This document shows positions 7,004-56,998 of a DNA stretch of 64,000 nucleotides, piece by piece (positions within the stretch are counted from its first letter, which is position 1; each line of letters opens with the position of its first letter). Source of the stretch: Planococcus versutus (lineage in GTDB: Bacteria; Bacillota; Bacilli; Bacillales_A; Planococcaceae); the NCBI RefSeq assembly GCF_001186155.3, contig NZ_CP016540.2, positions 682,001-746,000 of the forward strand, read 5' to 3'. Position numbers and translations under genes: made by a program. The notes under the pieces are model-generated. The model was not told the origin of the DNA. It did not search any database and worked only from the letters and a program-made list of their open reading frames with translations.

Positions 7004-7028
7004 GAATGCAAAGAAAGGAGGATTTCGC

Positions 7029-8988: not shown

Positions 8989-8992
8989 TTAG

Positions 8993-36805: not shown

Positions 36806-36822
36806 AAAGGGGAGAATTGAAA

Positions 36823-37799: not shown

Positions 37800-37833
37800 G
37801 CTAGAAAATCTTCAAAAATTACGAAATGAATGG

Positions 37834-37862
37834 AAGGAGGGTGCGTGTGCCCTCCTTTTTTT
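37834..37862 (+). terminator. Intercistronic terminator between tctC and tctB
   Basis: The stem AAGGAGGG / CCCTCCTT with an 8-base loop and a long T tract. It lies 35 bases after the tctC stop and 45 before the tctB start, and would lower the membrane genes relative to the binding protein. Confidence 0.75.
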
Positions 37863-37907
37863 GCTAATGAGATTGTGGTAATTAAAGACCAGAAAGTAGG
37901 ATGGCAA

Positions 37908-38390
37908 ATGGGAGAAATATTAATCGGATTAGCCTTGATCGTTCTATGTATCATTATTTACGTACAAGGCGGCAATTTACCGTCTTTGAATGAAGCGTAT
38001 TTCAGTGCAGGTTCTTTTCCAAGACTGATAGCAGCTTTGTTGATTTTACTATCAGCTATTTTGATCATTTCAAAAATGAACGAATTGAGAAAGAAAAAAC
38101 CTACTGAAGATAAAATCAGTACCCAAAAGCAACTAGCAGCTTTCTATATGGAATACCGACTGGTTGTTTTAACCACTGTGGTGTTTTTCGTGTACATCTT
38201 CTTGCTACAGTTTATCGGCTTTGTAGTTTCCACTATCCTCTTTATCATTGGAGCAGCTATTTTGATTGGCTATCGAAAAGGAAAAGAAGTGCTGACAGTT
38301 TCGGCCGTGGCGGTCATCCTTACGCTCAGCATGTATTTCTTCTTTGAAAATGTGCTTCATGTCCGGTTTCCATCGGGGATATTCATCTGA
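37908..38390 (+). CDS. tctB: TctB-type small permease of a tripartite tricarboxylate transporter
   Basis: A 160-residue protein with four hydrophobic helices (about residues 2-22, 40-60, 85-110 and 115-150), the TctB layout with GSFPRLIAALLILLSAILI after the first helix. I choose the ATG at 37908, which has AGTAGG upstream and places the first helix at the N-terminus; the frame is open back to 37830 but that part overlaps the terminator hairpin. It works with TctA and TctC. Confidence 0.82.
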   Translation: MGEILIGLALIVLCIIIYVQGGNLPSLNEAYFSAGSFPRLIAALLILLSAILIISKMNELRKKKPTEDKISTQKQLAAFYMEYRLVVLTTVVFFVYIFLLQFIGFVVSTILFIIGAAILIGYRKGKEVLTVSAVAVILTLSMYFFFENVLHVRFPSGIFI

Positions 38391-38413
38391 GAAAAATGAG
38401 AGGAGCTTAAAAA

Positions 38414-40519: not shown

Positions 40520-40540
40520 AATCCTATCTGCAAATTTCTA

Positions 40541-40573
40541 AACGGATGACGTGTACACGTTATCTGTTTTTTT
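40541..40573 (+). terminator. Intrinsic terminator in the tct/SDR intergenic gap
   Basis: The stem AACGGATGACGTGT / ACACGTTATCTGTT with two G-T pairs, followed by T7. It shows that the stretch upstream of it is transcribed, or once was. Confidence 0.75.
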
Positions 40574-40695
40574 ATGCGTAAAAGTATAGTTGTTTTAAAT
40601 TAGAAAATAAAAATTAAACTAAGTATTCCGAACATTGTTGCAATTTGACAGGATTAATCATATACTAAAAAAAATAAGAAAGAGGAGTGGGATTA

Positions 40696-41508
40696 GTGCA
40701 AAGTGTTAACAGTTTACAGTTAACTTTTAAAAATCGAGTTGTAGTTGTTGTAGGAGCTGCACACGGTATCGGCCGTGCCATTTGCAAAGAATTTGCCGTT
40801 CGAGATGCACAGGTGATAGCGGTCGATATCCTTAAAGAAGTACTAGAAGAAACTAATAAAGAAGTAGAACAAGCAATTAAAGAGAGTGGTTCTGCAGGAA
40901 GTATCCATCTTTATGCTTGTGATGCGACTGACTCAGGTGCAGTAAAAAACCTCGAAGAACAAGTAATCAGCAACTTTGGGAAAACGGATATTCTCGTTAA
41001 CGTAGCGGGAGGAGTTGCAGGACAAGTCCATCAAGTAATCGAGAATATTTCAGATGATGATTGGCAAAAGGTGCTTGATATTAACTTGACGACAACTTTT
41101 TATATGATTCGGGCGTTTGCCCCGCATATGAAAAAAGCAGCATACGGACGGATTATCAATATTTCAAGTGGCGCTGGAAGAAGTAGCAGTCTCACTGGCA
41201 TACAAGCTTATACGAGCGCCAAAGCGGGACAAATTGGATTGACCCGGCAGATGGCGCGCGAACTTGGGCGCTTTGGCATCACTGTAAACAATGTGGCGCC
41301 TGGTTTTGTCTTATCGAATCCATCAACGGAGCGGCAATGGAAAGCGATGTCCAAAGACCAGCAAAATCAGTTGATAAATTCGATTTCGGTAAAGCGATTG
41401 GGTCTTCCCGAAGATATAGCACATCCTGTACTTTTTTTCGCTTCAGATTTCTCCCGTTATGTGAGCGGTCAGGTTATTTCAGTCGACGGCGGGTTACAAC
41501 TTTTCTAG
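40696..41508 (+). CDS. Short-chain dehydrogenase/reductase
   Basis: A 270-residue classical SDR. The cofactor site is VVVGAAHGIGRAI, with AVD at the end of the second strand favouring NAD(H), followed by NVAGG, the catalytic Ser in INISSGAG and the YTSAK pair (Tyr-x-x-x-Lys), then the NNVAPGFV block and the GQVISVDGG end. The GTG at 40696 is 8 bases from AGAGGAG; another GTG at 40687 lies too near it. It is the first gene of the large operon: the next start is 12 bases after its stop. Confidence 0.88.
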   Translation: MQSVNSLQLTFKNRVVVVVGAAHGIGRAICKEFAVRDAQVIAVDILKEVLEETNKEVEQAIKESGSAGSIHLYACDATDSGAVKNLEEQVISNFGKTDILVNVAGGVAGQVHQVIENISDDDWQKVLDINLTTTFYMIRAFAPHMKKAAYGRIINISSGAGRSSSLTGIQAYTSAKAGQIGLTRQMARELGRFGITVNNVAPGFVLSNPSTERQWKAMSKDQQNQLINSISVKRLGLPEDIAHPVLFFASDFSRYVSGQVISVDGGLQLF

Positions 41509-41520
41509 GAGGAACATGTG

Positions 41521-42573
41521 ATGACTATTACGATAATCGGTGCAGGTGCGATAGGAGGAGTTCTTGGAGCTTATCTTGCTCGTGCGGGAGATGAAGTAGT
41601 ATTCTGCGATACAGCAGAAGATCATGTCAACAAGATTAATTTGAATGGACTCACGATTGAAGGACCCGATGAAACTTTCAATGTGAAATGTGCTGCTTAT
41701 ACCCCACCTCAACTCATTAAAAAAAATCAATCATTAGAACTTATTTTTCTTTGTGTGAAAGCGCAACATACAGAAAAAGCGCTTTCTCCTTTCTTGCCTC
41801 TTTTAACTTCGACTTCACAAGTAGTGTCATTTCAAAATGGATTATGCGAAAGAGAAATTTTAAAACTAATTGGTGCAGAACGTACGATAGGCTGCTTTGT
41901 TAACTTTTCTGCAGATTATCTTGAACCCGGAAAAATTCTTTACGGAGGAGTCGCATCACTTTATCTAGGAGAACTAGATGGCCAAGTATCAGAACGCATA
42001 ATGTCATTGAAAGATAAATTACAAGTTTGGGGACCGGCACAAGTAACCGATAACATTTGGGGATTTCTTTGGGGAAAAATGTCTTATGCTGGGTTGCTTT
42101 ATGCAACAGCTTTAGTAGATGAAACAATGGCAACTGTTGTTGAGAAGTATGAACTTCGCGATATGTTAATGGAATTATGTTCCGAAATTCTTGAAATAGC
42201 AGATAAAGAAGGGGTTGTGCCACTAGGATTTGATGATTGGGAACCTAATTTAATATATCCAAGAAAAGAACGTAATAATAAAAAGTTAGATGCCGGTCTA
42301 AAAAAATTAGCAGAAAGAATGGCTAACAATAAAAAAACGAAAAGTGGGATTTGGCGAGATTTGGCCATTAGAAAACGTCAAACAGAAGTAGATGCACAAC
42401 TTGTACCCATTCTTGAAATCGGCAAGATTCATAAAGTGGAAATGAAGCTTTTAGCAGCTTTAGTAGAAGCAATTAAAGAAATTGAAAACGGCAACCGAAA
42501 AATGAGTTGGCAAAATCTTTATGACTTGCAGAAAATATATAAATCTTTACCTCATGAGATAAGAAGAATATAG
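41521..42573 (+). CDS. Ketopantoate reductase family protein (ApbA/PanE)
   Basis: A 350-residue oxidoreductase with the PanE fold: N-terminal MTITIIGAGAIGGVLGAYLARAGDEV (Rossmann site), LIFLCVKAQHTEKAL, VVSFQNGLCE, and the WGFLWGKMSYAG segment that in PanE contains the catalytic Lys. It is longer than vitamin-pathway PanE (about 300) and lies in a catabolic operon, so it more likely reduces or oxidises another 2-keto/2-hydroxy acid together with the SDR. The ATG follows TAGGAGG; a GTG directly before it is possible. Confidence 0.82.
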   Translation: MTITIIGAGAIGGVLGAYLARAGDEVVFCDTAEDHVNKINLNGLTIEGPDETFNVKCAAYTPPQLIKKNQSLELIFLCVKAQHTEKALSPFLPLLTSTSQVVSFQNGLCEREILKLIGAERTIGCFVNFSADYLEPGKILYGGVASLYLGELDGQVSERIMSLKDKLQVWGPAQVTDNIWGFLWGKMSYAGLLYATALVDETMATVVEKYELRDMLMELCSEILEIADKEGVVPLGFDDWEPNLIYPRKERNNKKLDAGLKKLAERMANNKKTKSGIWRDLAIRKRQTEVDAQLVPILEIGKIHKVEMKLLAALVEAIKEIENGNRKMSWQNLYDLQKIYKSLPHEIRRI

Positions 42574-42584
42574 GAGTGAAAGAG

Positions 42585-43244
42585 ATGATTATCTTAGATC
42601 AGAGAACATTATCAGACGACGTATCAAAAATTATACGAAAAATGATTTTAAATGGCGAGTTGAAAGCTGGAGACTGGATAAATCAAGCGCAGTTGGCCGA
42701 AAAATTTAATATATCGAGAGGACCAATTCGAGAAGCATTGAAATTATTACAAAATGAAGGTCTTATCAAGCATGAAACAAACAAAGGTACGTTCGTTGCC
42801 ACGCTTTCTGATCAAGATGCATTTGAAATATACACTTTGCGGGCATTGATTGAAGGAGAAGCAGCACAATTAGCATTACTGCATTTAACCAGTCACGATT
42901 TTTTGGAACTTGAAAGGTACATCGAAGAGTTTACTGAAGCTATGGAAAACCAAGATATTGAACGTCAAGTGCAATGTGATATTTTATTCCATGGAAAAAT
43001 CGTTGCCGCTTCGAAGCATAAACGCTTAATCAGTATTCATAAAAATTTGGATACACAGGTGGGTGTCATGTATTTAACGATTGCCAACCAAGTTCCGATG
43101 CGTGTAGAACAAGTAGTCTACAATCACAGACTCTTGCTCAATGCACTCCGAACACGAGATAAGAAAAAAATAAAAAAAGCATTCTCAAACCATTACACGA
43201 CAGCACTAAAAGACTTAGCAACAGAGATCTCAAGAAAAGACTGA
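42585..43244 (+). CDS. GntR family regulator (FCD domain)
   Basis: A 219-residue regulator. The winged helix reads GELKAGDWINQAQLAEKFNISRGPIREALKLLQNEGLIKHETNKGTFV; the FCD effector domain follows with ALIEGEAAQLA, DILFHGKIVAASKHKRL and VVYNHRLLLNAL, where Asp and His residues can bind metal and a carboxylate. The ATG at 42585 follows TAGGAG. It lies inside the operon between the dehydrogenases and the transporter, so it is the likely local regulator, and its ligand is probably a breakdown product. Confidence 0.88.
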   Translation: MIILDQRTLSDDVSKIIRKMILNGELKAGDWINQAQLAEKFNISRGPIREALKLLQNEGLIKHETNKGTFVATLSDQDAFEIYTLRALIEGEAAQLALLHLTSHDFLELERYIEEFTEAMENQDIERQVQCDILFHGKIVAASKHKRLISIHKNLDTQVGVMYLTIANQVPMRVEQVVYNHRLLLNALRTRDKKKIKKAFSNHYTTALKDLATEISRKD

Positions 43245-43258
43245 GGGGCGGTGGAAGA

Positions 43259-44275
43259 ATGTTATTGGATGTTAAACACATGTCCTTATCCTTGAAACGA
43301 GCAGGTAAATATTCGAAAATCTTGGACGACATCTCTTTCTATTTAGAACAAGGAGAGACGCTTGGAATCGTTGGTGAATCAGGTTGTGGAAAAAGCATGA
43401 CCGCGTTGTCGCTGATGCAATTACTACCCGATAAAGCACGACTTGAAGGAGAAGTGGATTTACAAGGACAGATGATTTCAGGATCTTCGAAACGTAAATT
43501 AGAGAAAATTAGAGGCAACCAAATGTCGATGATCTTCCAAGATCCGCTAACGTCACTTAATCCGCTCCAAACAGTAGGCGTCCAGGTTGAAGAATCCCTT
43601 ATTCTGCATACGAAAAAAAATAAAAAAGAGCGCAGAAAACGTGTCTTAGAACTGCTGAATGCTGTAGGACTGCCAAGAGCTGAAGAACTAATTGATGAAT
43701 ATCCACATCAATTATCCGGTGGAATGCGGCAACGTATTATGATTGCCATCGCAATGGCTTGTGAACCTCAACTTTTAATTTGTGATGAACCAACAACGGC
43801 ATTAGATGTTACGGTTCAAGCTCAAATTTTGGAATTAATGAATGAAATTAAACGCGAAACCCGCATGGGAATCATCATGATTACTCATGACATGGGTGTC
43901 GTAGCAGAAGTTTGTGACCGTGTACTTGTAATGTATGCTGGAAAAATTGTAGAAGAAGCACACGCCACTGAATTGTTCGGGAATCCAAAGCACCCATACA
44001 CTCAAGGACTTTTAGCATCTATACCGAAACTCGGAAGAAGGAAAGAAAAACTTGGGTCGATTCCAGGTACGGTTCCAACGCCGGGAAGTATGCCAAATGG
44101 CTGCAGGTTTGCCGATCGTTGCCCGTACGTTATGGATATTTGTCGTACTGTAACACCTCAAATGATTCAAGTTAAAGAAAATCATCAGACGGCTTGCTGG
44201 CTTTATGATGAAAAAGGAGGGAATGAGAATGCCACTACTCGAAGTCACGAACTTGAAACAACACTTTACAACTAA
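43259..44275 (+). CDS. Peptide ABC transporter ATPase, OppD/DppD type (second system)
   Basis: A 338-residue ATPase. It has Walker [10 protein letters not shown]-loop MIFQDPLTSLNP, signature LSGGMRQR, Walker [14 protein letters not shown]-loop MITHDMG, and the C-terminal Cys-rich GCRFADRCPYVMDIC segment ending in CW. It starts at ATG 43259, 14 bases after the gntR stop, and overlaps the next ATPase gene by 47 bases. In contrast to the first system the ATPases precede the permeases. Confidence 0.92.
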   Translation: MLLDVKHMSLSLKRAGKYSKILDDISFYLEQGETLGIVGESGCGKSMTALSLMQLLPDKARLEGEVDLQGQMISGSSKRKLEKIRGNQMSMIFQDPLTSLNPLQTVGVQVEESLILHTKKNKKERRKRVLELLNAVGLPRAEELIDEYPHQLSGGMRQRIMIAIAMACEPQLLICDEPTTALDVTVQAQILELMNEIKRETRMGIIMITHDMGVVAEVCDRVLVMYAGKIVEEAHATELFGNPKHPYTQGLLASIPKLGRRKEKLGSIPGTVPTPGSMPNGCRFADRCPYVMDICRTVTPQMIQVKENHQTACWLYDEKGGNENATTRSHELETTLYN

Positions 44276-45185
44276 AAAGGGCTTTGTAGGTAATAAAACG
44301 ATTGTTAAAGCAGTTGATGGGGTTTCAATAACTATTGAAGAAGGAAAGACACTTGGCATAGTTGGTGAATCAGGTTGTGGAAAATCCAGTCTTGGTCGCT
44401 CCATTTTAAGGCTCGTGGAACCAACCGAAGGAAGTATCAAGTTCGAAGGCCAAGAAATTACCAATATGTCTGCAAAAGAGATGAAAGAGTTGCGTAAAGA
44501 AATGCAGATCGTTTTTCAAGATCCTTATGCTTCGTTAAATCCAAGACGTACGGTACGCCAAATTCTTGAAGCGCCACTTATTATTCATAACATAGGAAAT
44601 AAGACAGACCGCAAAGAGTTAATTGAAAGTCTATCTGAAAAAATAGGGCTTCGGAAAGAACAATTAAGCAACTATCCCCATGAATTTTCAGGAGGGCAAC
44701 GTCAACGTATTGGTATCGCCCGGGCGATGGCATTAAATCCGAAATTGATCATCGCTGATGAACCGGTTTCTGCACTTGATGTCTCGGTGCAGTCACAAGT
44801 ACTAAACTTAATGCTTGAACTTCAGCAAGAGCGAAATTTAAGTTATATGTTCATCTCGCATGATTTATCGGTAGTTCAGCATATTTCAGATAAAGTGGCT
44901 GTGATGTATTTAGGGAAAGTAGTTGAAATTGCTGATGTTGCAAAAGTCTATGATACGCCGATTCATCCATATACGCGTGCACTTTTGTCAGCATTGCCAA
45001 TTCCAGATCCGACTCATATTAAAAGTCGAATAATTCTTCAAGGTGATTTGCCAAGTCCATCCAATCCACCAACGGGTTGCACGTTCCACACGCGTTGTCC
45101 AATGGCTACAAAAGAATGTAAGGAAATCGTACCTCCATTAGAAGAAAAAGAACCAGGTCATTTTGCGGCTTGCATTCATGTTTGA
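44229..45185 (+). CDS. Peptide ABC transporter ATPase, OppF/DppF type (second system)
   Basis: A 318-residue ATPase with Walker [11 protein letters not shown]-loop [13 protein letters not shown], signature [14 protein letters not shown], Walker [14 protein letters not shown]-loop FISHDLSVVQH and a Cys-rich end ([15 protein letters not shown]). I choose ATG 44229, 8 bases from AAGGAGG; ATG 44223 is only 2 bases away from it. It pairs with the overlapping OppD-type subunit. Confidence 0.92.
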   Translation: MPLLEVTNLKQHFTTKKGFVGNKTIVKAVDGVSITIEEGKTLGIVGESGCGKSSLGRSILRLVEPTEGSIKFEGQEITNMSAKEMKELRKEMQIVFQDPYASLNPRRTVRQILEAPLIIHNIGNKTDRKELIESLSEKIGLRKEQLSNYPHEFSGGQRQRIGIARAMALNPKLIIADEPVSALDVSVQSQVLNLMLELQQERNLSYMFISHDLSVVQHISDKVAVMYLGKVVEIADVAKVYDTPIHPYTRALLSALPIPDPTHIKSRIILQGDLPSPSNPPTGCTFHTRCPMATKECKEIVPPLEEKEPGHFAACIHV

Positions 45186-45226
45186 CAAGAAAAGGACCTA
45201 AAAAGCTATTAAAGGGGGACAGCCCA

Positions 45227-46240
45227 ATGGACGCGTTACGATTTATCGGTAAACGATTGCTGTTGATGATACCAATTATAATCGGTATCAGCATCCTGAC
45301 TTTCTCTATTTCTAATACAATTCCGGGAGACCCTGCTCGACTCATACTTGGACCAAAAGCTACTCCAGATGGGCTCGAAGCACTGCGTGAAGATATGGGA
45401 TTAAACGATCCTCTTTATGTGCAATATGGAAGATATATGGGCGGAATTGTCCAAGGTGATCTTGGACAGAGTACGTATTCTCAACGACCGGTTATGGACG
45501 ATTTGTTGAGGTACTCACCAGCCACATTTGAACTGACAATGTTTGCAATGTTTATCACATTAATCATCGGAATTCCTTTCGGAGTCATCAGTGCCAGCAG
45601 GAAAGACCGGATTGCTGACCAATTCACCAGGATTTTCGCACTGATAGGTGTAGCTATGCCAGCGTTTTGGCTTGGGTTGTTATTGCTCCTATTCTTCTAC
45701 TTGAAGCTCGGTGTATTGCCAGGTTCTGGACGTTTGGATGGAGGTATGTCTCCACCAGAGTATATTACAGGCATGTACACAATTGATGCTTTGTTAACAG
45801 GAAACTGGTCTGTGTTTTATGCAGCTTTTATGCATTTAATTTTGCCAGGAATTACGTTGGCTGCGGTGACAGTTGGGATGATTACTCGAATGACTAGGTC
45901 GAGTATGCTGACTGTGTTACAAAGCGATTATATCCGCACGGCTTTTGCAAAAGGAGCGCCTGAAAATCGAGTACTTTACGGACATGCACTTCGTAACGGT
46001 ATTATGCCAGTCATCACGCTTCTCGGTATGGCATTTGGACATGCGCTTGGAGGCAGTATTCTGGTAGAAGCTGTGTTTTCGTGGCCAGGACTAGGTCAGT
46101 ATGCTGTGAATGCCATCAACTACTTAGATTTCCCGGCGGTTATGGGTGTGACAATGTTGATTGCAGTCATGTTTATTATTGTTAACTTGATTGTCGATAC
46201 ATTATATTTCTTCATTGATCCAAGATTGAAACATAGCTAG
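45227..46240 (+). CDS. Peptide ABC transporter permease, DppB type (second system)
   Basis: A 337-residue permease beginning MDALRFIGKRLLLMIPIIIGISILTF and containing [41 protein letters not shown], the EAA-like DYIRTAFAKGAPENRVLYGHALRN and the [15 protein letters not shown] block. It is a little longer than usual because of the GGMSPPEYITGMYTIDALL loop. The ATG at 45227 follows AAAGGGGG; the open frame begins 57 bases earlier. Confidence 0.9.
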   Translation: MDALRFIGKRLLLMIPIIIGISILTFSISNTIPGDPARLILGPKATPDGLEALREDMGLNDPLYVQYGRYMGGIVQGDLGQSTYSQRPVMDDLLRYSPATFELTMFAMFITLIIGIPFGVISASRKDRIADQFTRIFALIGVAMPAFWLGLLLLLFFYLKLGVLPGSGRLDGGMSPPEYITGMYTIDALLTGNWSVFYAAFMHLILPGITLAAVTVGMITRMTRSSMLTVLQSDYIRTAFAKGAPENRVLYGHALRNGIMPVITLLGMAFGHALGGSILVEAVFSWPGLGQYAVNAINYLDFPAVMGVTMLIAVMFIIVNLIVDTLYFFIDPRLKHS

Positions 46241-46255
46241 GGAGGGGTGGTTGAG

Positions 46256-47074
46256 TTGGCACGAAGAATTTTCAGAAGCCCGTTGACAGTGCTCGGTCTC
46301 TTCATTGTTTTAGGAATATTAATCGCTGCGTTATTTGCTCCAGTAATTGCTACTCACAGCCCAACCGAGGTGGATTTGGTGAGTAAACTCGAAGCGCCAA
46401 GTGTTGAACATTTTTTTGGTACGGATGAAGTTGGAAGGGATATTTTCAGCCGAGTTGTGTACGGCACGAGGATTTCATTGCGTATCGGTCTCTTAGTAGT
46501 ATTGATAGCATTCCCATTGGGTACAATACTCGGCGCAATTGCCGGGTATATGGGCGGCCGAATCGACCAAGTGATTATGCGAATTACAGATATTTTTCTC
46601 TCTTTTCCAGGCATCATTTTGGCAATGTCAATAGCAGCTGCACTTGGACCATCCATTGAAAATGTCATGTTGGCGCTTGCCGCTACTTGGTGGCCTTGGT
46701 ATACGAGAATTGTTCGTTCATCGGTACTGTCAATCAAACATTCGGAATTTATTGAAGCATCGCGAGCACTCGGAGCAAATCCATTTCGGATTTTGTTCAA
46801 GGAAATCATTCCGAATTCTATTGCACCAGCTACCATCCAAGCATCTTTGGATCTTGGATTCGTTATTTTAGCTGCTGCGGGACTCAGTTTTATTGGTCTC
46901 GGTGCACAGCCACCTTCACCAGAATGGGGCGCGATGCTTTCGAATAGTCGTGAAATACTGCGTGAAGCTTGGTGGGCTGCAACGTTCCCAGGCATTGCCA
47001 TTCTATTGACTGTACTAGGATTTAACTTACTTGGAGATGGACTGAATGATTTGCTAGATCCAAAACAGCGCTGA
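46256..47074 (+). CDS. Peptide ABC transporter permease, DppC type (second system)
   Basis: A 272-residue permease with [23 protein letters not shown], five further helices, the EAA-like EFIEASRALGANPFRILFKEI and the typical LLGDGLNDLLDPKQ end. I choose TTG 46256, 8 bases from GGAGGGG; GTG 46247 overlaps that site. Compared with the first system it lacks the longer N-terminal cytoplasmic tail. Confidence 0.9.
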   Translation: MARRIFRSPLTVLGLFIVLGILIAALFAPVIATHSPTEVDLVSKLEAPSVEHFFGTDEVGRDIFSRVVYGTRISLRIGLLVVLIAFPLGTILGAIAGYMGGRIDQVIMRITDIFLSFPGIILAMSIAAALGPSIENVMLALAATWWPWYTRIVRSSVLSIKHSEFIEASRALGANPFRILFKEIIPNSIAPATIQASLDLGFVILAAAGLSFIGLGAQPPSPEWGAMLSNSREILREAWWAATFPGIAILLTVLGFNLLGDGLNDLLDPKQR

Positions 47075-47161
47075 ATCTGTGTACAAATCACTGAAAGGGG
47101 GATAGAGGTTGTCTGCCAATATACTTTCACAATCAACATCAAAATTAAAGGGGGAAATACA

Positions 47162-48781
47162 GTGAAGTTCAAAAATCAGTGGTCAAAGTTATTTTTATTC
47201 CTCGTTATCGCTGTTTTAGTACTTGCAGGCTGCCAAAATTATAGTGAAGAAGAAACGAGTTCGTCAGAAGGAACAACTACAAGTTCAAATGAAAACTTCA
47301 ATGCTGAAGTCTTTAATTTTGCCACTAACCAAGATATTCCAGGACTTGATCCCCATGGAGCAGCGGCAAATACAACATTTCGTGTTATTTATCTTATGTA
47401 TGATCGTCTTGTGACATATGAAGGCTCATCAACTGAACCTACACCGATGCTTGCAAAGAGCTGGGATATCTCTGAAGATGGGCTTGAATATACATTTCAT
47501 CTTGTCGAAGATGCAAAATTTCATGATGGTTCTCCAGTGACGGCTGAAGCCGTACAGTATTCATTTACACGAGCCATTGATGTCGGGAAATCTGCTGCAG
47601 GAATTTTCAATAAAGTTATTGATAAAGATAGTTTCGAAGTTGTTGATGATTATACGATAAAAATCACATTGAAAGAACCATTTGCACCATTTATCAGTAC
47701 ATTAGGAACAGCTTTCGGTAATATCATCAACCCGGTACTAGAAGAAAAGCACGGAGATGATCTTGGAGAAAGTGTTCTTGCTGAAACTGAAATGGGCTCA
47801 GGGCCGTATGTCTTAGAAAGCTGGAATCGTGGTGAAACCATGGTGATGAAAGCAAATCCAGATTACTGGGGAGAAGCCCCAACTATGGAAACTGTTAATA
47901 TTCGATTTATTTCAGAAGCTTCTACTGCGCGTCTTATGCTAGAAAAAGGAGAAATCGATTTGATTGATAATACGGTCATTTCACCTGAAGTACTTGGACA
48001 GATGCGAGATACAGAAGGTGTAGAAGTTGTTGAAGCAGACGGCTATCAAATTGACTATATGCCAATGAATACAGAAAAAGGTGCACTTGCTGATGTGAAA
48101 GTACGCCAAGCAATTGCTCACAGTATCAATTACGATGCTCTTCTTGAAAGTGTCTATTTGGATCAGGCAGAACGTATTGGTGGGGCAGTTCCGAAAGGAA
48201 TGTTTGGATTTAGCGAGGAAGCTAAGCTTTACGAATATGATCTTGATAAAGCGAAAAAACTATTAAAAGAAGCAGGTCATGAAACTGGTTTAACACTTGA
48301 AATAGCGATTTCAGACGACAGTGAAGTACGAAGCAATACCGCTTTGTTATTGCAATCTGATTTAGAGAAAGTTGGCGTAACATTAGATATCAAAACATAT
48401 GCATGGCCAACATTCCTGGATTTGGTAACAAGCGGCAAACATGATTTCGGCCTTGTTTCTTGGACGCCAGACTATCCAGATCCTGACTATAACCTTTGGT
48501 ACTTTGCTCATTCATCAAGCAAAGGCCCTGGATTCAACTTGGCATTCTATGAAAACAGTGAAGTCGATAGCTTGCTAGAAGAAGCTCGAACTTCAACAGA
48601 TGAAGCACTACGAGAACAAAATTACATGGAAATTCAAAATACAATGGCTGAAGAAGTTCCTTATATCTTTGTTGCACAACCGAAACTTGAAGCACCTATG
48701 CGTACATGGGTCAAAGGGTATGAACTAAACCCGATGAATTCTTGGTACGTACCGTTCCATAAAATTACAAAAGAAGAGTAA
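47162..48781 (+). CDS. Peptide ABC transporter substrate-binding lipoprotein (second system)
   Basis: A 539-residue family-5 solute-binding protein. The signal peptide ends in the lipobox VLAGC, followed by a Ser/Glu/Thr-rich linker (about residues 22-45). The mature part has the GLDPHGAAANTTF opening, AKFHDGSPVTAEAVQYSF and DVKVRQAIAHSINYDALL. It starts at GTG 47162 after AAAGGGGG. It is the receptor for the compound that the following hydrolases probably break down; specificity cannot be read from the sequence. Confidence 0.9.
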   Translation: MKFKNQWSKLFLFLVIAVLVLAGCQNYSEEETSSSEGTTTSSNENFNAEVFNFATNQDIPGLDPHGAAANTTFRVIYLMYDRLVTYEGSSTEPTPMLAKSWDISEDGLEYTFHLVEDAKFHDGSPVTAEAVQYSFTRAIDVGKSAAGIFNKVIDKDSFEVVDDYTIKITLKEPFAPFISTLGTAFGNIINPVLEEKHGDDLGESVLAETEMGSGPYVLESWNRGETMVMKANPDYWGEAPTMETVNIRFISEASTARLMLEKGEIDLIDNTVISPEVLGQMRDTEGVEVVEADGYQIDYMPMNTEKGALADVKVRQAIAHSINYDALLESVYLDQAERIGGAVPKGMFGFSEEAKLYEYDLDKAKKLLKEAGHETGLTLEIAISDDSEVRSNTALLLQSDLEKVGVTLDIKTYAWPTFLDLVTSGKHDFGLVSWTPDYPDPDYNLWYFAHSSSKGPGFNLAFYENSEVDSLLEEARTSTDEALREQNYMEIQNTMAEEVPYIFVAQPKLEAPMRTWVKGYELNPMNSWYVPFHKITKEE

Positions 48782-48884
48782 AGGTCATGGGAGCAGTTGT
48801 GGAAACACGATTGCTTCCCTCTTTTTTAGAAGTCTATAGTTTATCAATCTGTATAGTAAACCAATGAAATGGAGGAAAGAATGG

Positions 48885-49835
48885 ATGAGCACTAAATGGG
48901 GAATTGGTAATTTGTTTGCTGCTAAAGGAGAAAAAACAAAAGGACATTTGGAACTGCCAACGCTCAACGAAAAGTTACCTGCATTTTTAGCCAATGGATT
49001 ACATGAAGGTCCAACCGTCCTTGTTATGGGTGGGATTCATGGGTGTGAGTACACCTCTATTGACGCCGCATTAAAAATTGGGATCTCATTGGATCCTAAG
49101 TATATACAAGGCAAGATAATCATACTCCCAATTGTGAATATCTCTTCATTTTATGCGCGTAGTATCTATGTTCATCCTGATGATCAGAAAAATCTGAACC
49201 GGATGTTTCCAGGAATTCAACATGGAACAAGCGCAGAACGCTTAGCTTATTGGCTGAATGAGATAGTTTTTAAGAAAGTAGACTATATTATCGATCTTCA
49301 TGGAGGCGATATGATTGAAGCACTGGTCCCATTTACTATTTATCATGTGACAGAGGATAAAAAAGTTCTTCAAATCTCTAAAGAAATGGCTTCTCTTTTT
49401 GACATCAAATATGTAATTGGAAGTGATGGACAAGTACCGGGTTCAACATATGGTTGCGCTGCAGAACAAGGGATCCCTGCAATTATCGCTGAAGCAGGTC
49501 AACAAGGAATTCTCAGTAAAGAACAATCTTTAATGTTGCAAGAAGGCGTAAAGAATATTCTTATATCAATCCATGTACTGAAAGGAAAAGTTATCAATAG
49601 AAATTCGATATACCTATCTGTCTTTGAATGGTATCGTTCTGATGTCCAATGTCTTTGGTATCCTGAGATAGCAATTGGAGATCAAGTAGAAAAAGGACAG
49701 TTGCTTGGTCGATTGTCTGATGAATTTGGTGAAACTATTCGGGAAGTATATTCGAATTCAACGGGTATTGTTCTTTTTCTTGTCAGTTCACTGGCAATCA
49801 ATCAAAATGATCCATTACTTGCAGTGGGGGCGTAA
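48885..49835 (+). CDS. Succinylglutamate desuccinylase/aspartoacylase family deacylase
   Basis: A 316-residue zinc-dependent hydrolase of the AstE/AspA family. It has the zinc site GGIHGCEY (His-x-x-Glu) at about residue 50, the R-N-x-N-R-like NLNRMFPG block, VDYIIDLHGGD with the third zinc ligand, and IIAEAGQQG carrying the catalytic Glu region. Such enzymes remove N-acyl groups from amino acids or amides. The ATG at 48885 is 9 bases from GGAGG; an upstream in-frame ATG overlaps it. In context it may uncap an acylated peptide or amino acid. Confidence 0.83.
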   Translation: MSTKWGIGNLFAAKGEKTKGHLELPTLNEKLPAFLANGLHEGPTVLVMGGIHGCEYTSIDAALKIGISLDPKYIQGKIIILPIVNISSFYARSIYVHPDDQKNLNRMFPGIQHGTSAERLAYWLNEIVFKKVDYIIDLHGGDMIEALVPFTIYHVTEDKKVLQISKEMASLFDIKYVIGSDGQVPGSTYGCAAEQGIPAIIAEAGQQGILSKEQSLMLQEGVKNILISIHVLKGKVINRNSIYLSVFEWYRSDVQCLWYPEIAIGDQVEKGQLLGRLSDEFGETIREVYSNSTGIVLFLVSSLAINQNDPLLAVGA

Positions 49836-49837
49836 CG

Positions 49838-51223
49838 ATGGAACATTTATTGGATATCTCACTCACAGAACTCGCCAAGCTTTACCGAAATACTGAAGTA
49901 TCACCAGTCGAAATTGTAAAAGCTACTTTTGAGCGACAACTAAAAGTTGAACCTCAGCTAAACGCATTTATTTCACTTACTGAAAAAGAAGCGCTGCAAC
50001 AAGCAAAAGAAGCAGAAAAACACTTTTTAAGGCGTGAATCTGTTCATATATTAACTGGAATTCCTTTTTCTGCAAAAGATTTGTTTTATACGAAAGACAT
50101 TCGGACTACGTGCGCTTCAAATATTCTCAGAAATTTCAAACCAGATTTTACTGCTACTGCTATTAAAAAGCTTTTAGAAAATGGTGCTGTAATGATTGGC
50201 AAGAATAATATGTTGGAGTTTGCTTATGGTGTAGTTCACCCTGATTTTGGAAAAACAAATAATCCGTGGGATCTTTCCAAAACTTCTGGAGGTTCTTCAA
50301 GTGGATCGGTAGCAGCAGTTGCAAGTGGTATCGGGTTTTTCTCGTTAGGCACTGATACGGGTGGATCGATCCGAATTCCAGCTTCTTACTGCGGCGTAGT
50401 TGGATTAAAGCCAACACGTGGACTTGTTAGTACACACGGTGTCTTTCCGCTGTCACAGTCGCTCGATCATGCTGGGCCTATAGCTCGAAATGCGCTTGAC
50501 GCTGCGCTTGTAATCGAAACAATTTCAGGATGTGACTCGGAAGATCCTTACTCGCTTGCAGGAAAAATTACAGCAGTCGACATTGAAAATTTTTATGCAT
50601 CGATTAATAAACGTATTGGTATTTTACCTGAGCGACAGCTCGGAGGGCTTACACCAGATGTTCGTAGCGTTTATAAAAATACACTTAAACACGTACAATC
50701 ACTCGGTTGGGAAATAGAAGAAATCACAATTCCAGGTTGGTCGCAGACTGAAGATATCATTATGAACGTCTTGCTTCCGGAAGCAGCCCAAATTCATAAG
50801 CAATGGCTTGATCGAAAAAAAGAGTACGCAACCATGACATATCATCAAATTGAAATGGGCATGGAAAAGAAAGCGGTCGATTATTTAGACGGCTTGCTTA
50901 GTTTAAAAAAATATACTGAAGATGTCACAAGGCTATTTAAGAGTATAGACTTTTTATTATTGCCAACGGTAGCTTTTGCGGCGCCTGCTGAAGACCCAGT
51001 TATTGGCAGTTCAGAAGAAGATGAAATGGTTTTTACAGGACCATTTAATATTTCGGGACATCCAGCGGTTACGATCAATATGGGATTCACTGAAAATGGA
51101 TTGCCAGTTGGAATGCAGCTCGTTGCTCCACATTTCCGAGATATTGAGCTTTTGCAAGCTGCAGCACAACTTGAACACTTAAGAGCTGTGAAGTTGCCGC
51201 CACTGATTGGAAAAGGAGTTTAG
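49838..51223 (+). CDS. Amidase signature family enzyme
   Basis: A 461-residue amidase. The Ser-cisSer-Lys triad is visible as Lys80 in FSAKDLF, cis-Ser153 in TSGGSSSGSVAA, and nucleophile Ser177 in GTDTGGSIRIP. It hydrolyses amides to acids and ammonia or amine. It is not a GatA of the tRNA amidotransferase, since no gatB/gatC is near. It starts 2 bases after the deacylase stop and ends directly before the M20 gene, so the three are tightly coupled. Confidence 0.9.
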   Translation: MEHLLDISLTELAKLYRNTEVSPVEIVKATFERQLKVEPQLNAFISLTEKEALQQAKEAEKHFLRRESVHILTGIPFSAKDLFYTKDIRTTCASNILRNFKPDFTATAIKKLLENGAVMIGKNNMLEFAYGVVHPDFGKTNNPWDLSKTSGGSSSGSVAAVASGIGFFSLGTDTGGSIRIPASYCGVVGLKPTRGLVSTHGVFPLSQSLDHAGPIARNALDAALVIETISGCDSEDPYSLAGKITAVDIENFYASINKRIGILPERQLGGLTPDVRSVYKNTLKHVQSLGWEIEEITIPGWSQTEDIIMNVLLPEAAQIHKQWLDRKKEYATMTYHQIEMGMEKKAVDYLDGLLSLKKYTEDVTRLFKSIDFLLLPTVAFAAPAEDPVIGSSEEDEMVFTGPFNISGHPAVTINMGFTENGLPVGMQLVAPHFRDIELLQAAAQLEHLRAVKLPPLIGKGV

Positions 51224-52372
51224 ATGATGCAAACTATTCTGGAATACTCGGAACAACATAAAAATGACATGAAAGAAACATTAATTCGTCTTGTTCAAGC
51301 AGAATCACCTTCACGCAATAAGCTACTATCCGATCGTTGTGGCCAAGTATTGGCAGATTTGTTTGAGGAGTTGGTTGAAGGGCAAGTAAAAGTAATTGAA
51401 AAAGAAACTGTTGGCAATCAGTATCGCTTTACGGTCGGTTCTGGCTCTGCACAAATACTGATTATTGGTCACTACGATACAGTGTGGGATCAAGCAACTA
51501 TCCCGTTGCGTGAAGAAAATGGAGTGCTTTATGGACCTGGTGTATTCGATATGAAAGGCGGATTGATTGTCACGTTATGGGCATTAAAAGCATTAAAGAG
51601 TACAGGTATTGACTTAACTAAAAAAATCGTCTTTCTTGTAACGTCAGATGAAGAAATTGGCAGCTCGCATTCGCGTGCGCTAATCGAAGAAGAAGCAAAA
51701 AAAAGCGAGCTTGTGCTGGTGCCTGAATCGAGTATTTCTAATTCTGGATCTGTCAAAACGTTCCGTAAAGGCATTGGGATTTTTAAGATCGAAGTTAACG
51801 GCATCGCGGTACACGCAGGCATCAATCCGTGGCAAGGAGTCAGTGCCATTGATGAACTTGTTCTCCAGTTACAGAAAATTAAAAAGTTAGACGATCGCGA
51901 AGCAGGAATTTCGGTGAACATAGGAACGATTTCCGGTGGAACCCGAACAAATGTAGTAGCAGATTATGCAGAAGCGATGATTGATGTGCGCTTTACGACG
52001 AAAGTACAAGGTCAAGAACTTGAGGCTGCTTTGCGTAGCAGTTTACCTTTTTCACAAAGAGCGGTCGTCACTATTACAGGTGATATTAACCGATATCCGA
52101 TGGAAGAGACCAAAGAAGTCCTCACTTTGTTTAATGAACTTAAAGAAATTGCTGAGGGGCACGGTTATGTCCTTCAAAAGGGCGGTTCTGGAGGAGCTAG
52201 TGACGGCAATTTTACTGCAACACTTGGCATTCCAACGATTGATGGACTTGGACCAATGGGCGATGGTGCCCATGCTGTACATGAACATATCTTGCTTGGA
52301 AATTTACCTTATCGCGCAGCGTTAATTGCTGAATTGCTTGAACGTCATTTGACTTATAAGGAGGGCATATGA
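51224..52372 (+). CDS. M20 family metallopeptidase (carboxypeptidase G2-like)
   Basis: A 382-residue dizinc hydrolase. The pattern HYDTVWD gives the first zinc His and Asp, GPGVFDMKGGL the bridging Asp, TSDEEIGS the catalytic Glu and zinc Glu, and PESS the following Glu ligand; the last His is in AVHEH near the end. Such enzymes cut C-terminal Glu or other residues from peptides or N-acyl amino acids. The start is ATG 51224 or the adjacent ATG 51227, after AAAGGAG. Confidence 0.9.
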   Translation: MMQTILEYSEQHKNDMKETLIRLVQAESPSRNKLLSDRCGQVLADLFEELVEGQVKVIEKETVGNQYRFTVGSGSAQILIIGHYDTVWDQATIPLREENGVLYGPGVFDMKGGLIVTLWALKALKSTGIDLTKKIVFLVTSDEEIGSSHSRALIEEEAKKSELVLVPESSISNSGSVKTFRKGIGIFKIEVNGIAVHAGINPWQGVSAIDELVLQLQKIKKLDDREAGISVNIGTISGGTRTNVVADYAEAMIDVRFTTKVQGQELEAALRSSLPFSQRAVVTITGDINRYPMEETKEVLTLFNELKEIAEGHGYVLQKGGSGGASDGNFTATLGIPTIDGLGPMGDGAHAVHEHILLGNLPYRAALIAELLERHLTYKEGI

Positions 52373-52375
52373 TTA

Positions 52376-53104
52376 ATGGACATGATGACAATAAACTTAA
52401 AAGAATTTAAAGAAATGCAAAAAACGGTAAACACAGTGCTGTTGCCAATCGGCATGATTGAAGCGCACGGGCCACATTGCGCACTTGGAACGGATGTTTT
52501 GATTCCACGTGAGTTTGTTCGTCGATTAGAAAAAGAAAGAGGTAATCAGATTTTGATGGCACCTGAAGTAACATACGGCCATTCTTGGGGACTCGCATCA
52601 TTCCCAGGTACCATTGATATTTCAGCAAAAGCGTTTAGCAATTACGTGTTCGAAATTTGCAAAGGATTTTATGAAAATGGGTTTAATAATATCATTTTGT
52701 TTAACGGCCATGGAGGCAATATTTCAAGTCTTGATATTGTAACTGAAAAACTTGCAGATATCGGTGTTCGAACATTGACAATTAATTGGTATGTTGATTA
52801 CCGAGAAGACATTAAAAAAATCGCAGCAAATCCAGGTCATGCCGGTGAAGACGAGACTTCACTGGTATTAGCAATTAACGAAAAATATGCTTTTACTGAA
52901 GGAGTAGGAAGCCACGAAATTCCTTTAGCAAAACGTTTTCGTTTTAAGGATGGAGGCGCCACATTATATCCAGAAGCTTTCTCTGGTGATGCAGAAAATG
53001 CGACAGCTGAAAAAGGTGAAAAATTATACCGCATGATGATGAACTTGATACTCAAAGATATTGATACATTATGGAAAATTGAACAGCAACAAGAGAGGAG
53101 ATAA
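52376..53104 (+). CDS. Creatininase family amidohydrolase
   Basis: A 242-residue enzyme with the creatininase fold: PIGMIEAHGPHCALGTD (metal-binding Glu, His and Asp), YGHSWGLASFPGTI, ILFNGHGGN and NPGHAGEDETS. Relatives open cyclic amides (creatinine), deformylate FAPy compounds or cleave the mycofactocin precursor peptide. It lies 3 bases after the M20 gene with AAGGAGGG upstream. Its presence suggests that the imported compound has a cyclic or unusual amide bond; this is inference. Confidence 0.88.
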   Translation: MDMMTINLKEFKEMQKTVNTVLLPIGMIEAHGPHCALGTDVLIPREFVRRLEKERGNQILMAPEVTYGHSWGLASFPGTIDISAKAFSNYVFEICKGFYENGFNNIILFNGHGGNISSLDIVTEKLADIGVRTLTINWYVDYREDIKKIAANPGHAGEDETSLVLAINEKYAFTEGVGSHEIPLAKRFRFKDGGATLYPEAFSGDAENATAEKGEKLYRMMMNLILKDIDTLWKIEQQQERR

Positions 53105-53108
53105 AAAT

Positions 53109-54377
53109 ATGACTTTACGTTGGACACCACAACCAGTGGGCGATGCGATTGTTGATATCGTTTTAAGCCTAAATGAACAAGCCCAATCGATGCACGGAAC
53201 AGAAGTGGCAACAGCAAGTTATAGTAAAATCAAACCTTCAATTAATAACTTAGACGCCATAGGGCGAAAAATTGAAGAAGTAGAAAAAGAAATCCAAGAG
53301 CTTGAAGGGCATCCGGGAAGATATCTCCGTTCAATGCTCAATGCCTATGGATACTTTGTGCGTAGCTTGCAAGGAGATGATTTGCCATATGCTGAGTATA
53401 TCGCAAATATTCAAGAACTGCCTGCCACGCTCATTTCAGAAGAAGCGATGAAAGGGCATAGAGAACTTGTAGAACAAGGGCTAACTAATTTGAACTATAA
53501 AGGAAGCTTAAAAGACAAAGCGGAGAATTGGCTTAAAGATACACTGATCTCACCTGAGAAAGTAGTAGAAGTGGCAGAATCAATGAAGGAGAAAAGTAAA
53601 ATAGGTACATTAAAGCGCGTCATTGAACTACCGAAAGAAGATGGTATCGATTATATCAAATCTATTCGTGATGTGTTTTGGAGTGGTTACTCTAAATACA
53701 CTGGTGATTTCAGAGGGAATCTGACGTTCAATATTGATAGACCTTGGACGGAACCGGTACTTGCACAAATTATGACACATGAGAGTTACCCAGGTCATCA
53801 AGCATTTTATTGCCGGTGGGACTATCTTTTCCAACAAGATAAACTACCACTAGAAGCGTCTTATTATCTCATCAATTCACCAACCAATGCGCTATTTGAA
53901 GGTGGGCCGGAAAGCGCACTTCACTTTTTAGGGTGGGACCGAGATGAAGAAGAGACAGAAGAAATTTCTCTTGAGCAAAAAGAACAGTATAAACTGGCAC
54001 GTGACTGGATTGATATGCAACGCATGGCTATGACAAATGCGTGTTATATGTTTAACACAAGGGAGATGAACAAAGAAGAGTCTGTTGCCTACATGATGGA
54101 AAAAGGATTGCTTGGAGAAATTGAAGCAAATAATTGTTATCGTTTCTTTTCGCATCCTATACAGAAGACGTATTATCCCTCTTACTATTATGGACGTTGG
54201 ATGGTTGGCAAAGCGTATGATTCCGTTCCAAAAGAGCAACGACCAGCATTTTTTGAAACCCTTTACGATACACCTCATACAACCAATACATTTATCGACG
54301 CAGTAAGTAAGTTAGTGGGTAGAAAATTTCAACCCTTTGAGCAAGTAAAAAATTCCAAAGAAGATTTTTTAATCTAA
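53109..54377 (+). CDS. DUF885 family metallohydrolase
   Basis: A 422-residue protein of the DUF885 family, thought to be zinc peptidases. The metal motif is T-H224-E225-S-Y-P-G-H230, with a likely third ligand at Glu264 in NALFEGGPE, and the C-terminal segment YYPSYYYGRWM is typical. It is shorter than most DUF885 proteins (about 550-600), lacking part of the N-terminal helical region. The ATG at 53109 follows GAGAGGAGA, 4 bases after the creatininase-family stop. No signal peptide, so cytosolic. Confidence 0.83.
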   Translation: MTLRWTPQPVGDAIVDIVLSLNEQAQSMHGTEVATASYSKIKPSINNLDAIGRKIEEVEKEIQELEGHPGRYLRSMLNAYGYFVRSLQGDDLPYAEYIANIQELPATLISEEAMKGHRELVEQGLTNLNYKGSLKDKAENWLKDTLISPEKVVEVAESMKEKSKIGTLKRVIELPKEDGIDYIKSIRDVFWSGYSKYTGDFRGNLTFNIDRPWTEPVLAQIMTHESYPGHQAFYCRWDYLFQQDKLPLEASYYLINSPTNALFEGGPESALHFLGWDRDEEETEEISLEQKEQYKLARDWIDMQRMAMTNACYMFNTREMNKEESVAYMMEKGLLGEIEANNCYRFFSHPIQKTYYPSYYYGRWMVGKAYDSVPKEQRPAFFETLYDTPHTTNTFIDAVSKLVGRKFQPFEQVKNSKEDFLI

Positions 54378-54411
54378 TTATAGATGAGTGCTCAAAGAAA
54401 GGAGCGTTTAC

Positions 54412-56142
54412 ATGACCACTAATTTGACTGCCATTCAAAAGAGCCTGGTTGGAGCTGTTTCTGCGGATGGTCTGATGGCATACACAGCAGAAATTTCAAA
54501 AGAAATACGGCTCTCGGGCTCATTAGAAGAGTTGCGAGCATTTAAATATGCCAAAAGCGTACTCGATGAGCTAGGAGCAGAAACCCGCTTGACGTTTCAT
54601 GACGGATTTATTAGCTTACCCGTATCCGCTGAACTAAAAGTAGGGGAAATCAACATGCCATGTATCACTCATTCGATGTCTGCCACAACGGGTACTGAAG
54701 GTTTATATGGAGATTTGGTTTATATAAGATCTCTTAGTTCCAATGTGAATACAATAGGGAAGATTGTGTTGATAAAAGGAATTGCTACACCAGGTACTGT
54801 AGAAATGTTGGAAACAGCCGGAAGTCTAGCAGTCATTTTTATTAATGGTACAATCACCCACGAAATGACCGTATCACGGGTGTGGGGCAATCCGACTCCA
54901 GAAACCAAAAAAGAGTTCCCAAAAATTCCTGTGCTATCCATTACAGAAGTCGAAGCAAATTTGTTACTTAAGCAATTAGACCATTCTAGTAACCACATCG
55001 AAGTTTGGTTGAAAACAATTGTTGATACCGGATGGCGTAAAATCCCTACACTAGTTGCTGAATTGAAGGGGGAAGTGGAGCCGGAGAAGTTCGTTTTGTT
55101 TAGTGGACATATCGACTCTTGGCATTATGGAGCTATGGATAATGGAAGTGCCAATGCAGCAATGCTAGAAACTGCAAGAGTGCTAACCGAATGCCAAGTG
55201 CCTCTTCGACGGACGCTAAGGCTGGCTTTTTGGTCGGGGCATTCACATGGGCGATATTCTGGGTCTACTCATTACAACGACATGCATTGGGAAGACTTAC
55301 ACGAAAATTGTTTCCTACATGTATATGCTGATTCATTAGGTGGAAAAGGCGCTACGATTCTGAGTGAAAGTAATTGCATGGCTGAAACGAGAGATTATGG
55401 AGGTGGATTTGTTAAAGCATTAACTCAAGAAAATTTTATCGGCAAAAGATTTGGTAGAGGGGGAGACCAATCTTTCTGGGGAACGGGCATTCCTGCACTA
55501 TTTATGGGAATGTCGGAACAACCACTAAGTGATAATTTGGCTTCGCAAACGCTTGCCAGTTTGTTTGGTGGCATCAAATCTGGTGGATTTGGATGGTGGT
55601 GGCATACAACTGAAGATACACTGGACAAATTAGATCCTGCTAACTTGCGCCGTGACTGTCAAATTTATGTGTCCGTCATTCATGACGCTTGTACGAGAAA
55701 AGTTCTTCCCTTTAATCATGAAGCAGGTGCGCACGAAATTCGAAAAGCGTTAGAGCATTATCAAAAATTGGCGGACAGTCGCCTAGACCTGACACGAGCG
55801 CTTGAGCGAGCAACATTACTTGAAAGTTTAGGTATGCAACTCAACAAAGTTATGCACAACAGAAACTGGAGTGACGATGCCGCAAAAGCATTCAACGATG
55901 CCATGCTCTCGATTTCACATGAACTTATTCCACTCAATTATGTGAGTGGAGACAGATTCGATCAAGATTTAGCGATGAACCAGCCTGTTCTTCCCCTTTT
56001 GAAGGATATCAGTTTGCTGGCTTTGACAGAACAAGGAAGCGCTGAAGATTTGGAATGGCAAACACTTTTAAAAAGAAGATTAAACAAAGTGGAGTATAGT
56101 TTACTGAAAGCTTGTCGAATTGCACAAGCTCTCATTCCGTAA
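54412..56142 (+). CDS. M28-family peptidase-like protein with altered active-site motif
   Basis: A 576-residue protein with a PA-like insert (about residues 80-200) and an M28 aminopeptidase domain. Zinc ligands His233 and Asp235 in SGHIDSWHYG and Asp243 in AMDNGS are present, but the position of the usual catalytic Glu-Glu pair (WSGEExGLxGS) reads WSGH277S278HGRYSGS. A last His is in WWWHTTEDTLDKLD. There is no signal peptide. The ATG at 54412 follows AAAGGAG. It closes the operon. The changed motif may define a subfamily with another metal geometry or a non-hydrolytic role. Confidence 0.82.
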   Translation: MTTNLTAIQKSLVGAVSADGLMAYTAEISKEIRLSGSLEELRAFKYAKSVLDELGAETRLTFHDGFISLPVSAELKVGEINMPCITHSMSATTGTEGLYGDLVYIRSLSSNVNTIGKIVLIKGIATPGTVEMLETAGSLAVIFINGTITHEMTVSRVWGNPTPETKKEFPKIPVLSITEVEANLLLKQLDHSSNHIEVWLKTIVDTGWRKIPTLVAELKGEVEPEKFVLFSGHIDSWHYGAMDNGSANAAMLETARVLTECQVPLRRTLRLAFWSGHSHGRYSGSTHYNDMHWEDLHENCFLHVYADSLGGKGATILSESNCMAETRDYGGGFVKALTQENFIGKRFGRGGDQSFWGTGIPALFMGMSEQPLSDNLASQTLASLFGGIKSGGFGWWWHTTEDTLDKLDPANLRRDCQIYVSVIHDACTRKVLPFNHEAGAHEIRKALEHYQKLADSRLDLTRALERATLLESLGMQLNKVMHNRNWSDDAAKAFNDAMLSISHELIPLNYVSGDRFDQDLAMNQPVLPLLKDISLLALTEQGSAEDLEWQTLLKRRLNKVEYSLLKACRIAQALIP

Positions 56143-56956: not shown

Positions 56957-56998
56957 GCCCTTTCGAAATCAAGTGATTTTGAAAGGGTATTTTTTTTG
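56957..56998 (+). terminator. Intrinsic terminator after the PepSY gene
   Basis: The stem CCCTTTCGAAATCA / GATTTTGAAAGGG, one mismatch, followed by a T8 tract. The following 190 bases up to the helicase gene show no gene. Confidence 0.85.

Follow-up and report, generated by a model that had tools for sequence, protein, structure and literature searches.

What does a bacterium take up and dismantle with an SDR oxidoreductase, an ApbA-like enzyme, a local regulator, a five-part peptide importer and six hydrolases of different families, all encoded on one strand, and do these genes act as a unit? The question is raised by a locus of Planococcus versutus in a 64,000-nucleotide stretch (G000:C1:682001-746000, hereafter the window) of its 3.33 Mb genome. 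Pfam and NCBIfam profile searches identify 14 co-directional genes at window positions 40687-56142 on the forward strand, in the order SDR, ApbA-like, GntR/FCD, OppD, OppF, OppB, OppC, OppA, AstE-like, amidase, M20, creatininase-family, DUF885-like and M28. Ten of the 13 junctions lie within 35 bases (range -16 to +14), the exceptions being OppD/OppF (-71 for the listed open reading frames (ORFs), or about -47 if OppF starts at ATG 44229), OppC/OppA (+87) and OppA/AstE (+82). The initial annotation, made from the letters of the sequence, had given the same families in the same order on the same strand, with gaps or overlaps mostly under 35 bases, all of which we recover; its total of thirteen genes was a miscount. 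We consider it probable that these genes form one locally regulated catabolic operon, and their predicted products make import, local regulation and hydrolysis its likely tasks. Operons of this general kind are known. As for the gene set itself, literature searches on its families, which covered open-licence papers, yielded no published description, in keeping with the earlier remark that no named pathway has this set.

The recurrence of the gene order in relatives indicates that the operon is more than a chance array. Our main comparison set comprises 28 genomes including that of the window, each with a close relative of the DUF885-like protein (at least 63% identity). They are the close relatives from draws of genomes at the levels of family, order, class and phylum and from the family of genome G350, together with Pseudalkalibacillus caeni and Aquibacillus koreensis. 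The draws overlap, with the genome of the window counted wherever it was drawn; loci L040-L044 are on the same contigs as G069, G176, G183, G173 and G091 and were counted once. The set excludes G844 (about 45% identity, another layout), all matches at about 20-25%, among them five low-identity matches of the G350-family draw, and a fragment in G468. The same order is found under nine genus handles and in the two named genera, with a swapped importer in one of the 28 genomes. SDR and ApbA-like genes are present in 26/26 testable loci, as L045 and L046 end before the SDR, ApbA and GntR genes; the GntR/FCD gene is in place in 25 of the 26 and lies further downstream in the last one. Creatininase-family and DUF885-like genes are present in 28/28 genomes, and OppF, OppB, OppC and OppA each in 27. 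The other hydrolases are more variable, with the amidase in 25 genomes, AstE in 22 and M20 in 21, and at least two of these three are retained at every locus. M28 was found in 19/28 genomes at first count, some stretches ending early, and in 21 once further stretches had been read. These 21 include L031 (P. koreensis contig, 1267-3008), where tblastn aligns M28 in two pieces that overlap, which points to a probable frameshift; the gene is not in the stretch read in L019, L116, L119 and L122, and L112, L115 and L117 are counted in neither class. The comparison thus agrees with the initial annotation in that the hydrolases are kept together behind an Opp-type importer as one conserved gene group. 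Its steady core is made of the SDR, ApbA-like, creatininase-family and DUF885-like genes; the six hydrolases are not an invariant set.

The DUF885-like gene has a patchy distribution, even inside the genus. Matches to its product were found in 7/151 genomes of the family draw, 16/261 of the order draw and 19/193 of the draw from the family of G350, as well as in 9/398 class-draw and 5/398 phylum-draw genomes (alignment A1). The nearest named relative found with this protein is Planococcus halocryophilus (90%). The genome with the swapped importer, G1126, has the order SDR, ApbA-like, AstE, M20, creatininase-family, DUF885-like, M28, a different Opp set (proteins 28-56% identical to those of the window operon), an M42-like gene (by eye) and GntR. 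In some G350-type loci both the ApbA-like gene and OppA occur a second time; at L059 (16521-19191) and similar loci, the additional copies follow the DUF885-like gene and are 53-54% and 57-59% identical, respectively, to their window counterparts. Several relatives carry a further SDR gene directly 3' of M28 (Pfam check in L046 only). The more distant G844 combines OppBCDFA, AstE, DUF885-like, creatininase-family and M42 genes. We also observed a group of S66, substrate-binding protein (SBP), OppBCDF, M20 and creatininase-family genes in G493 (L068, 5545-14260), so creatininase-family enzymes recur beside peptide importers.

All six hydrolase families proposed initially are present, and catalytic motifs are kept in five of them; it is not safe to regard all six as active, since the M28-type protein has His-Ser in place of Glu-Glu. 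The latter belongs to the M28 family by profile (PF04389, 72.0 vs 21.3 bits), and the substitution is seen in alignment with its nearest chains, of the GCPII type, in which we take the Glu-Glu pair to be the general base and a metal ligand. His-Ser is found in 18/18 orthologs and, among the 120 top-ranking of 3344 matches, in 119 (own protein included; one not parsed). The creatininase-family protein (PF02633, 177.8 vs 31.3 bits) has its metal-site motifs conserved in 28/28 genomes, namely the Glu and both His of EAHGPH, the Asp of LGTD, NGHGGN and GHxGEDET. The nearest solved structures of the AstE-like and M20 proteins are DoeB (6twm) and carboxypeptidase G2 (CPG2), respectively. The amidase keeps its Lys and two Ser motifs, with one Ser of GGSSSGS replaced by Cys in 1 of 25 sequences. 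As for the DUF885-like protein, it gave no match to PF05960 in Pfam up to an E value of 10, and a PDB sequence search returned chance-level matches only. Its placement in the DUF885 fold group rests on the HESYPGH motif, an HExxH zinc motif with a downstream Glu, and on the predicted fold. At 422 residues it is more compact than 3iuk, a DUF885 protein, and than two putative lipoproteins, 3o0y and 3u24 (546-585 residues).

Several known pathways were considered for these enzymes and rejected. The ectoine (Doe) pathway is disfavoured by the score of the AstE-like protein with TIGR02994 (DoeB; 108.6 vs a cut-off of 402.7) and by the absence of an M24-type DoeA among the 14 genes. The scores are likewise low for creatinine degradation (TIGR04448, 84.3 vs 235 bits) and for MftE of the mycofactocin pathway (TIGR03964, 110.7 vs 172 bits). 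The ApbA-like protein reaches the score of the ketopantoate reductase subfamily (TIGR00745, 144.6 vs 141.35). Relative to its solved relative 3hwr it keeps the Lys and Glu motifs, and two Asn are replaced by Ala and Tyr. It lacks the Asn residues that follow the active-site Lys in PanE and presumably contact pantoate; the Ala substitution is found in 26/26 loci.

The binding protein offers an indication of the substrate. Asp437 of OppA aligns, as counted on the printed alignment, with Asp408 of DppA, which we assume to anchor the free amino group of the peptide. An Asp is present at this position in 27/27 OppA orthologs and in the swapped protein of G1126. Among ten rows compared, it is Asn or Ser in six more distant SBPs, namely those of G844, of the other Opp system of the window and of four sister operons described below. 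Because OppA keeps this DppA-type Asp, its sequence favours an imported substrate with a free amino end. For the same reason N-capped candidates are disfavoured, among them, as the imported form, the acyl-capped peptide envisaged in the initial annotation. N-acetylglutaminylglutamine amide, N-acetylaspartylglutamate and pantothenate-type substrates had no specific support and were set aside. OppA is not a DppA equivalog by profile (NF043070, 227.9 vs 1005 bits).

A conserved DNA site overlaps the first codons of the SDR gene, for which a GTG at 40696 matches the ribosome-binding site better, by eye, than the listed start at 40687. In this site, TGTTAACAGTTTACA, a central A is flanked by imperfect half sites of 7 bases each. 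It is exact in 24/28 genomes, and the other four have 1, 1, 2 and 3 mismatches; that 28/28 fit the site pattern carries no weight, as this pattern was derived from sequences that had been inspected before and has TGT-N9-ACA as a requirement. The shared site was first seen in 14 loci, and 8 of 12 further loci have it exactly. Selection acts on the DNA at the SDR start, besides the protein, because the codons for S-V-N-S-L are nearly without synonymous change: in rows carrying the residue, the commonest codon accounts for fractions of 1.0, 0.89, 1.0, 1.0 and 1.0. The median for the other 122 columns, in which the residue is found in at least 90% of rows, is 0.54, and 4 of them reach 0.9. The shorter 15-mer AGTGTTAACAGTTTA is exact in all seven named genomes searched, five of which had been seen before; in the two new ones, Pseudalkalibacillus and Aquibacillus, it lies about 2.55 kb 5' of OppD, the expected distance. 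The genome of the window has one exact copy of the site, that of the operon, and G1126 has a 2-mismatch copy at the start of its swapped Opp set.

We infer that the GntR/FCD protein, the product of the third gene, uses the 15-bp site as its operator. Some observations weigh against this assignment, which is based on place and conservation. The reversed control of AGTGTTAACAGTTTA gave 6 matches with at most one mismatch, in 4/7 genomes, so only an exact match at the expected place counts. In the genome of the window, 13 matches with at most two mismatches compare with 11 for the reversed control, which means that weaker copies alone mean nothing. Furthermore, the site copy of G1126 lacks the final ACA. 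Promoter-like pairs occur near the same place, just 5' of the site, in many relatives' loci. Region-wide, -35/-10-like pairs do not exceed shuffles (42 found vs a mean of 46.2), and a separate promoter scan placed another pair of the window above TTGCAA-17-TATACT.

The initial annotation treated the genes as a single unit and named internal terminators among the features that could split it. The gap 3' of OppA folds into a hairpin in 27/27 loci with OppA in this layout (first 75 bases of each gap, 100 mononucleotide shuffles). Its energies range from -18.7 to -29.9 kcal/mol and its z-scores from -1.7 to -5.8, the weakest being L031 (-1.7) and L017 (-2.0). The stem sequences vary by genus while the hairpin persists, and T-rich sequence follows it in many loci. 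With 13 pairs, the hairpin of the window tops the list of terminator-like matches of the region, which number 17 vs 13.8 (standard deviation 3.7) in shuffles and are thus not clearly in excess. Partial terminators and message-stabilising elements behind binding-protein genes typically look like this. With the hairpin present in all 27 loci, the import and hydrolysis genes are probably expressed unequally. The hairpin may split the unit, which speaks against a single operon; the gene order favours one regulated group, and in our view the hairpin qualifies the single-unit reading without breaking it.

We propose the following scheme for a locally regulated catabolic operon. A GntR/FCD dimer would bind the site and block initiation of transcription or translation of the first gene until an inducer releases it; organic acids and amino-acid products are the probable inducers. 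OppA and OppBCDF would import a short peptide-like compound with a free amino end, and the hairpin after OppA might lower the expression of the hydrolases relative to the importer or stabilise the importer message. In the cytoplasm, the core cuts would be made by the creatininase-family and DUF885-like zinc enzymes, and the AstE-like, amidase and CPG2-like M20 enzymes, which vary between strains, might free acyl, amide or acidic C-terminal parts. The M28-like protein may assist or have changed chemistry, and the SDR and ApbA-like enzymes would act on a hydroxy- or keto-acid fragment, either oxidising or reducing it. It is tempting to guess at a short Glu/Asp-rich peptide with unusual amide links, a doubtful suggestion at this stage. 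A bolder possibility, which we put forward tentatively, is a catabolic pathway without prior description that is dedicated to a single modified peptide or a single natural product of peptide-like nature, in which the creatininase-family and DUF885-like enzymes make new types of cuts, the SDR and ApbA-like enzymes handle a hydroxy-acid building block and the His-Ser M28 protein has altered metal chemistry. Of the earlier idea that one complex substrate requires all six hydrolases, what stands is that they are kept behind one importer. The absence of AstE, the amidase or M20 from some genomes makes the rest of it too strong. Together with the swapped importer in one genome, it also counts against the scheme above, since the substrate may differ between strains. 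Nor does any hydrolase reach the equivalog cut-off of a known pathway.

Alternatively, the operon could serve general peptide scavenging, a broad importer and mixed peptidases acting on ordinary peptides instead of a single unusual substrate. The variation of the accessory hydrolases would fit, as would the M42 proteins of the G844 group and, by eye, of G1126, the resemblance of the binding protein to DppA-type proteins and the presence of 8 SBP_bac_5 proteins in the genome. Ordinary peptides should not need the SDR, ApbA-like, creatininase-family and DUF885-like proteins that form the steadiest core, nor does scavenging account for the operon having its own regulator and a DNA site of which the genome carries just one exact copy, and we find this explanation rather unlikely. 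It is improbable that full termination at the hairpin leaves the hydrolases as a second unit under their own promoter. The T run of the window hairpin and the presence of a hairpin in all 27 loci favour such an arrangement, but no regular second operator-like site precedes AstE (further sites with at most two mismatches turn up sporadically, and three occupy similar positions within OppA), the promoter-like matches of the region do not exceed shuffles, and the hydrolases lie behind this importer in 27/28 loci. Amide-cutting enzymes behind an importer might also destroy a toxic peptide-like antibiotic after uptake, an antibiotic-like molecule being among the substrates suggested in the initial annotation. 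We regard such a role in inactivation or resistance as very improbable: a dedicated importer for a toxin would be surprising, Pfam reveals no exporter-type gene among the 14, and GntR/FCD regulators usually sense metabolites.

A non-peptide amide, such as a compatible solute, a vitamin-like compound or a ring amide opened by the creatininase-family enzyme and deacylated by AstE, is an improbable substrate, yet one that related systems bring to mind. Creatininase-family members act on rings, and the AstE-like protein is nearest, among solved structures, to DoeB of ectoine breakdown; the M24 and aminotransferase components of the DoeA/DoeB/DoeD system have no counterparts among the 14 genes. Other Bacillales have a sister operon, M24-OppABC-AstE-DUF885-like-class III aminotransferase-OppDF, to which L039 adds aspartate dehydrogenase; we read it ORF by ORF in L020, L039, L061 and L062 and by tblastn in L021 and L038, with a Pfam check on L039. 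Its M24, AstE, aminotransferase and, in L039, aspartate dehydrogenase presumably resemble an ectoine-type breakdown set, though with an Opp importer. It shares the linkage of Opp importer, AstE and DUF885-like protein with the window operon, its DUF885-like proteins being about 20-24% identical to that of the window. The sister stretches read contain no creatininase, SDR or ApbA-like match, and the binding proteins (28-33% identical) lack the amine-anchoring Asp in 4/4 compared, so the substrate is probably different. A non-peptide amide is also disfavoured by the lack of M24 in the window operon and by equivalog scores that stay far under the cut-offs for DoeB and creatininase. A DUF3870 gene stands beside the sister operon of L061. 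The operon also resembles Opp/Dpp peptide-import operons with peptidases, such as the murein-peptide operon dpp-ykf of Bacillus subtilis, in its five-part importer and cytoplasmic peptidases; it differs in its hydrolase set, the SDR and ApbA-like genes at its head and its local GntR/FCD regulator.

Because DUF885-like proteins recur at low identity beside AstE and importers, the trio of AstE, DUF885-like protein and importer represents a wider module. A plasmid search with the DUF885-like protein returned 15 records at about 19-25% identity. On a Neorhizobium plasmid, M24-type genes, an ABC importer, AstE, an amidohydrolase and a DUF885-like gene are found together; the Ensifer plasmid match lies in a stretch without annotation. 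OppA/OppB-type genes and an amidase are near the low-identity match of G975, and those of G281 and G658 have no Opp or AstE neighbours in the stretch read. The operon of P. versutus, a gene set kept together across several Bacillales genera, ties the little-understood DUF885-like, creatininase-family, His-Ser M28 and ApbA-like groups to one importer and one regulator. Its conserved DNA site and binding protein are two direct handles on the substrate, which could help assign functions to barely characterised families.

Table 1. Coordinates of the genes and candidate regulatory features of the operon in the window.
Feature	Position	Strand	Basis or remark
Promoter-like TTGCAA-17-TATACT	40638..40666	+	ahead of SDR gene; consensus match 9/12
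SDR oxidoreductase	40696..41508	+	PF13561/PF00106
Candidate GntR/FCD operator TGTTAACAGTTTACA, 15-bp pseudo-palindrome	40704..40718	+	overlaps first SDR codons
ApbA/PanE-like dehydrogenase or reductase	41518..42573	+	PF02558+PF08546
GntR/FCD regulator	42576..43244	+	PF00392+PF07729
OppD-type ATPase	43259..44275	+	PF00005+PF08352
OppF-type ATPase	44205..45185 (start probably ATG 44229)	+	PF00005+PF08352; NF008453 443 vs 408
OppB-type permease	45170..46240 (start probably ATG 45227)	+	PF00528+PF19300
OppC-type permease	46247..47074	+	PF00528+PF12911; NF045474 307.5 vs 300
OppA-type lipoprotein binding protein	47162..48781	+	PF00496
Terminator- or attenuator-like hairpin, then T run	48789..48818	+	13 pairs
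AstE/AspA-family deacylase	48864..49835 (start probably ATG 48885)	+	PF24827
Amidase-signature hydrolase	49838..51223	+	PF01425
M20 metallopeptidase	51224..52372	+	PF01546+PF07687
Creatininase-family amidohydrolase	52376..53104	+	PF02633
Compact DUF885-like HExxH zinc protein	53109..54377	+	HESYPGH motif + predicted fold
PA/M28-type protein	54412..56142 (listed ORF start 54388)	+	PF04389

Scanning the window revealed no Rfam match (gathering cut-off) and no tRNA. On its 5' side, the operon is preceded by the TctC, TctB and TctA genes of a tripartite tricarboxylate transporter and by a terminator-like hairpin at 40540-40569. These tct genes belong to a group at 34114-39940 that also includes a gamma-glutamyltranspeptidase and two chromate-transporter halves. 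On the 3' side, a PepSY protein gene follows after 200 bases, with a hairpin at 56957-56988. Elsewhere in the window (2401-10960), a second Opp-type group is accompanied by L-asparaginase II, an M55 D-aminopeptidase and a 330-residue protein without a Pfam match.

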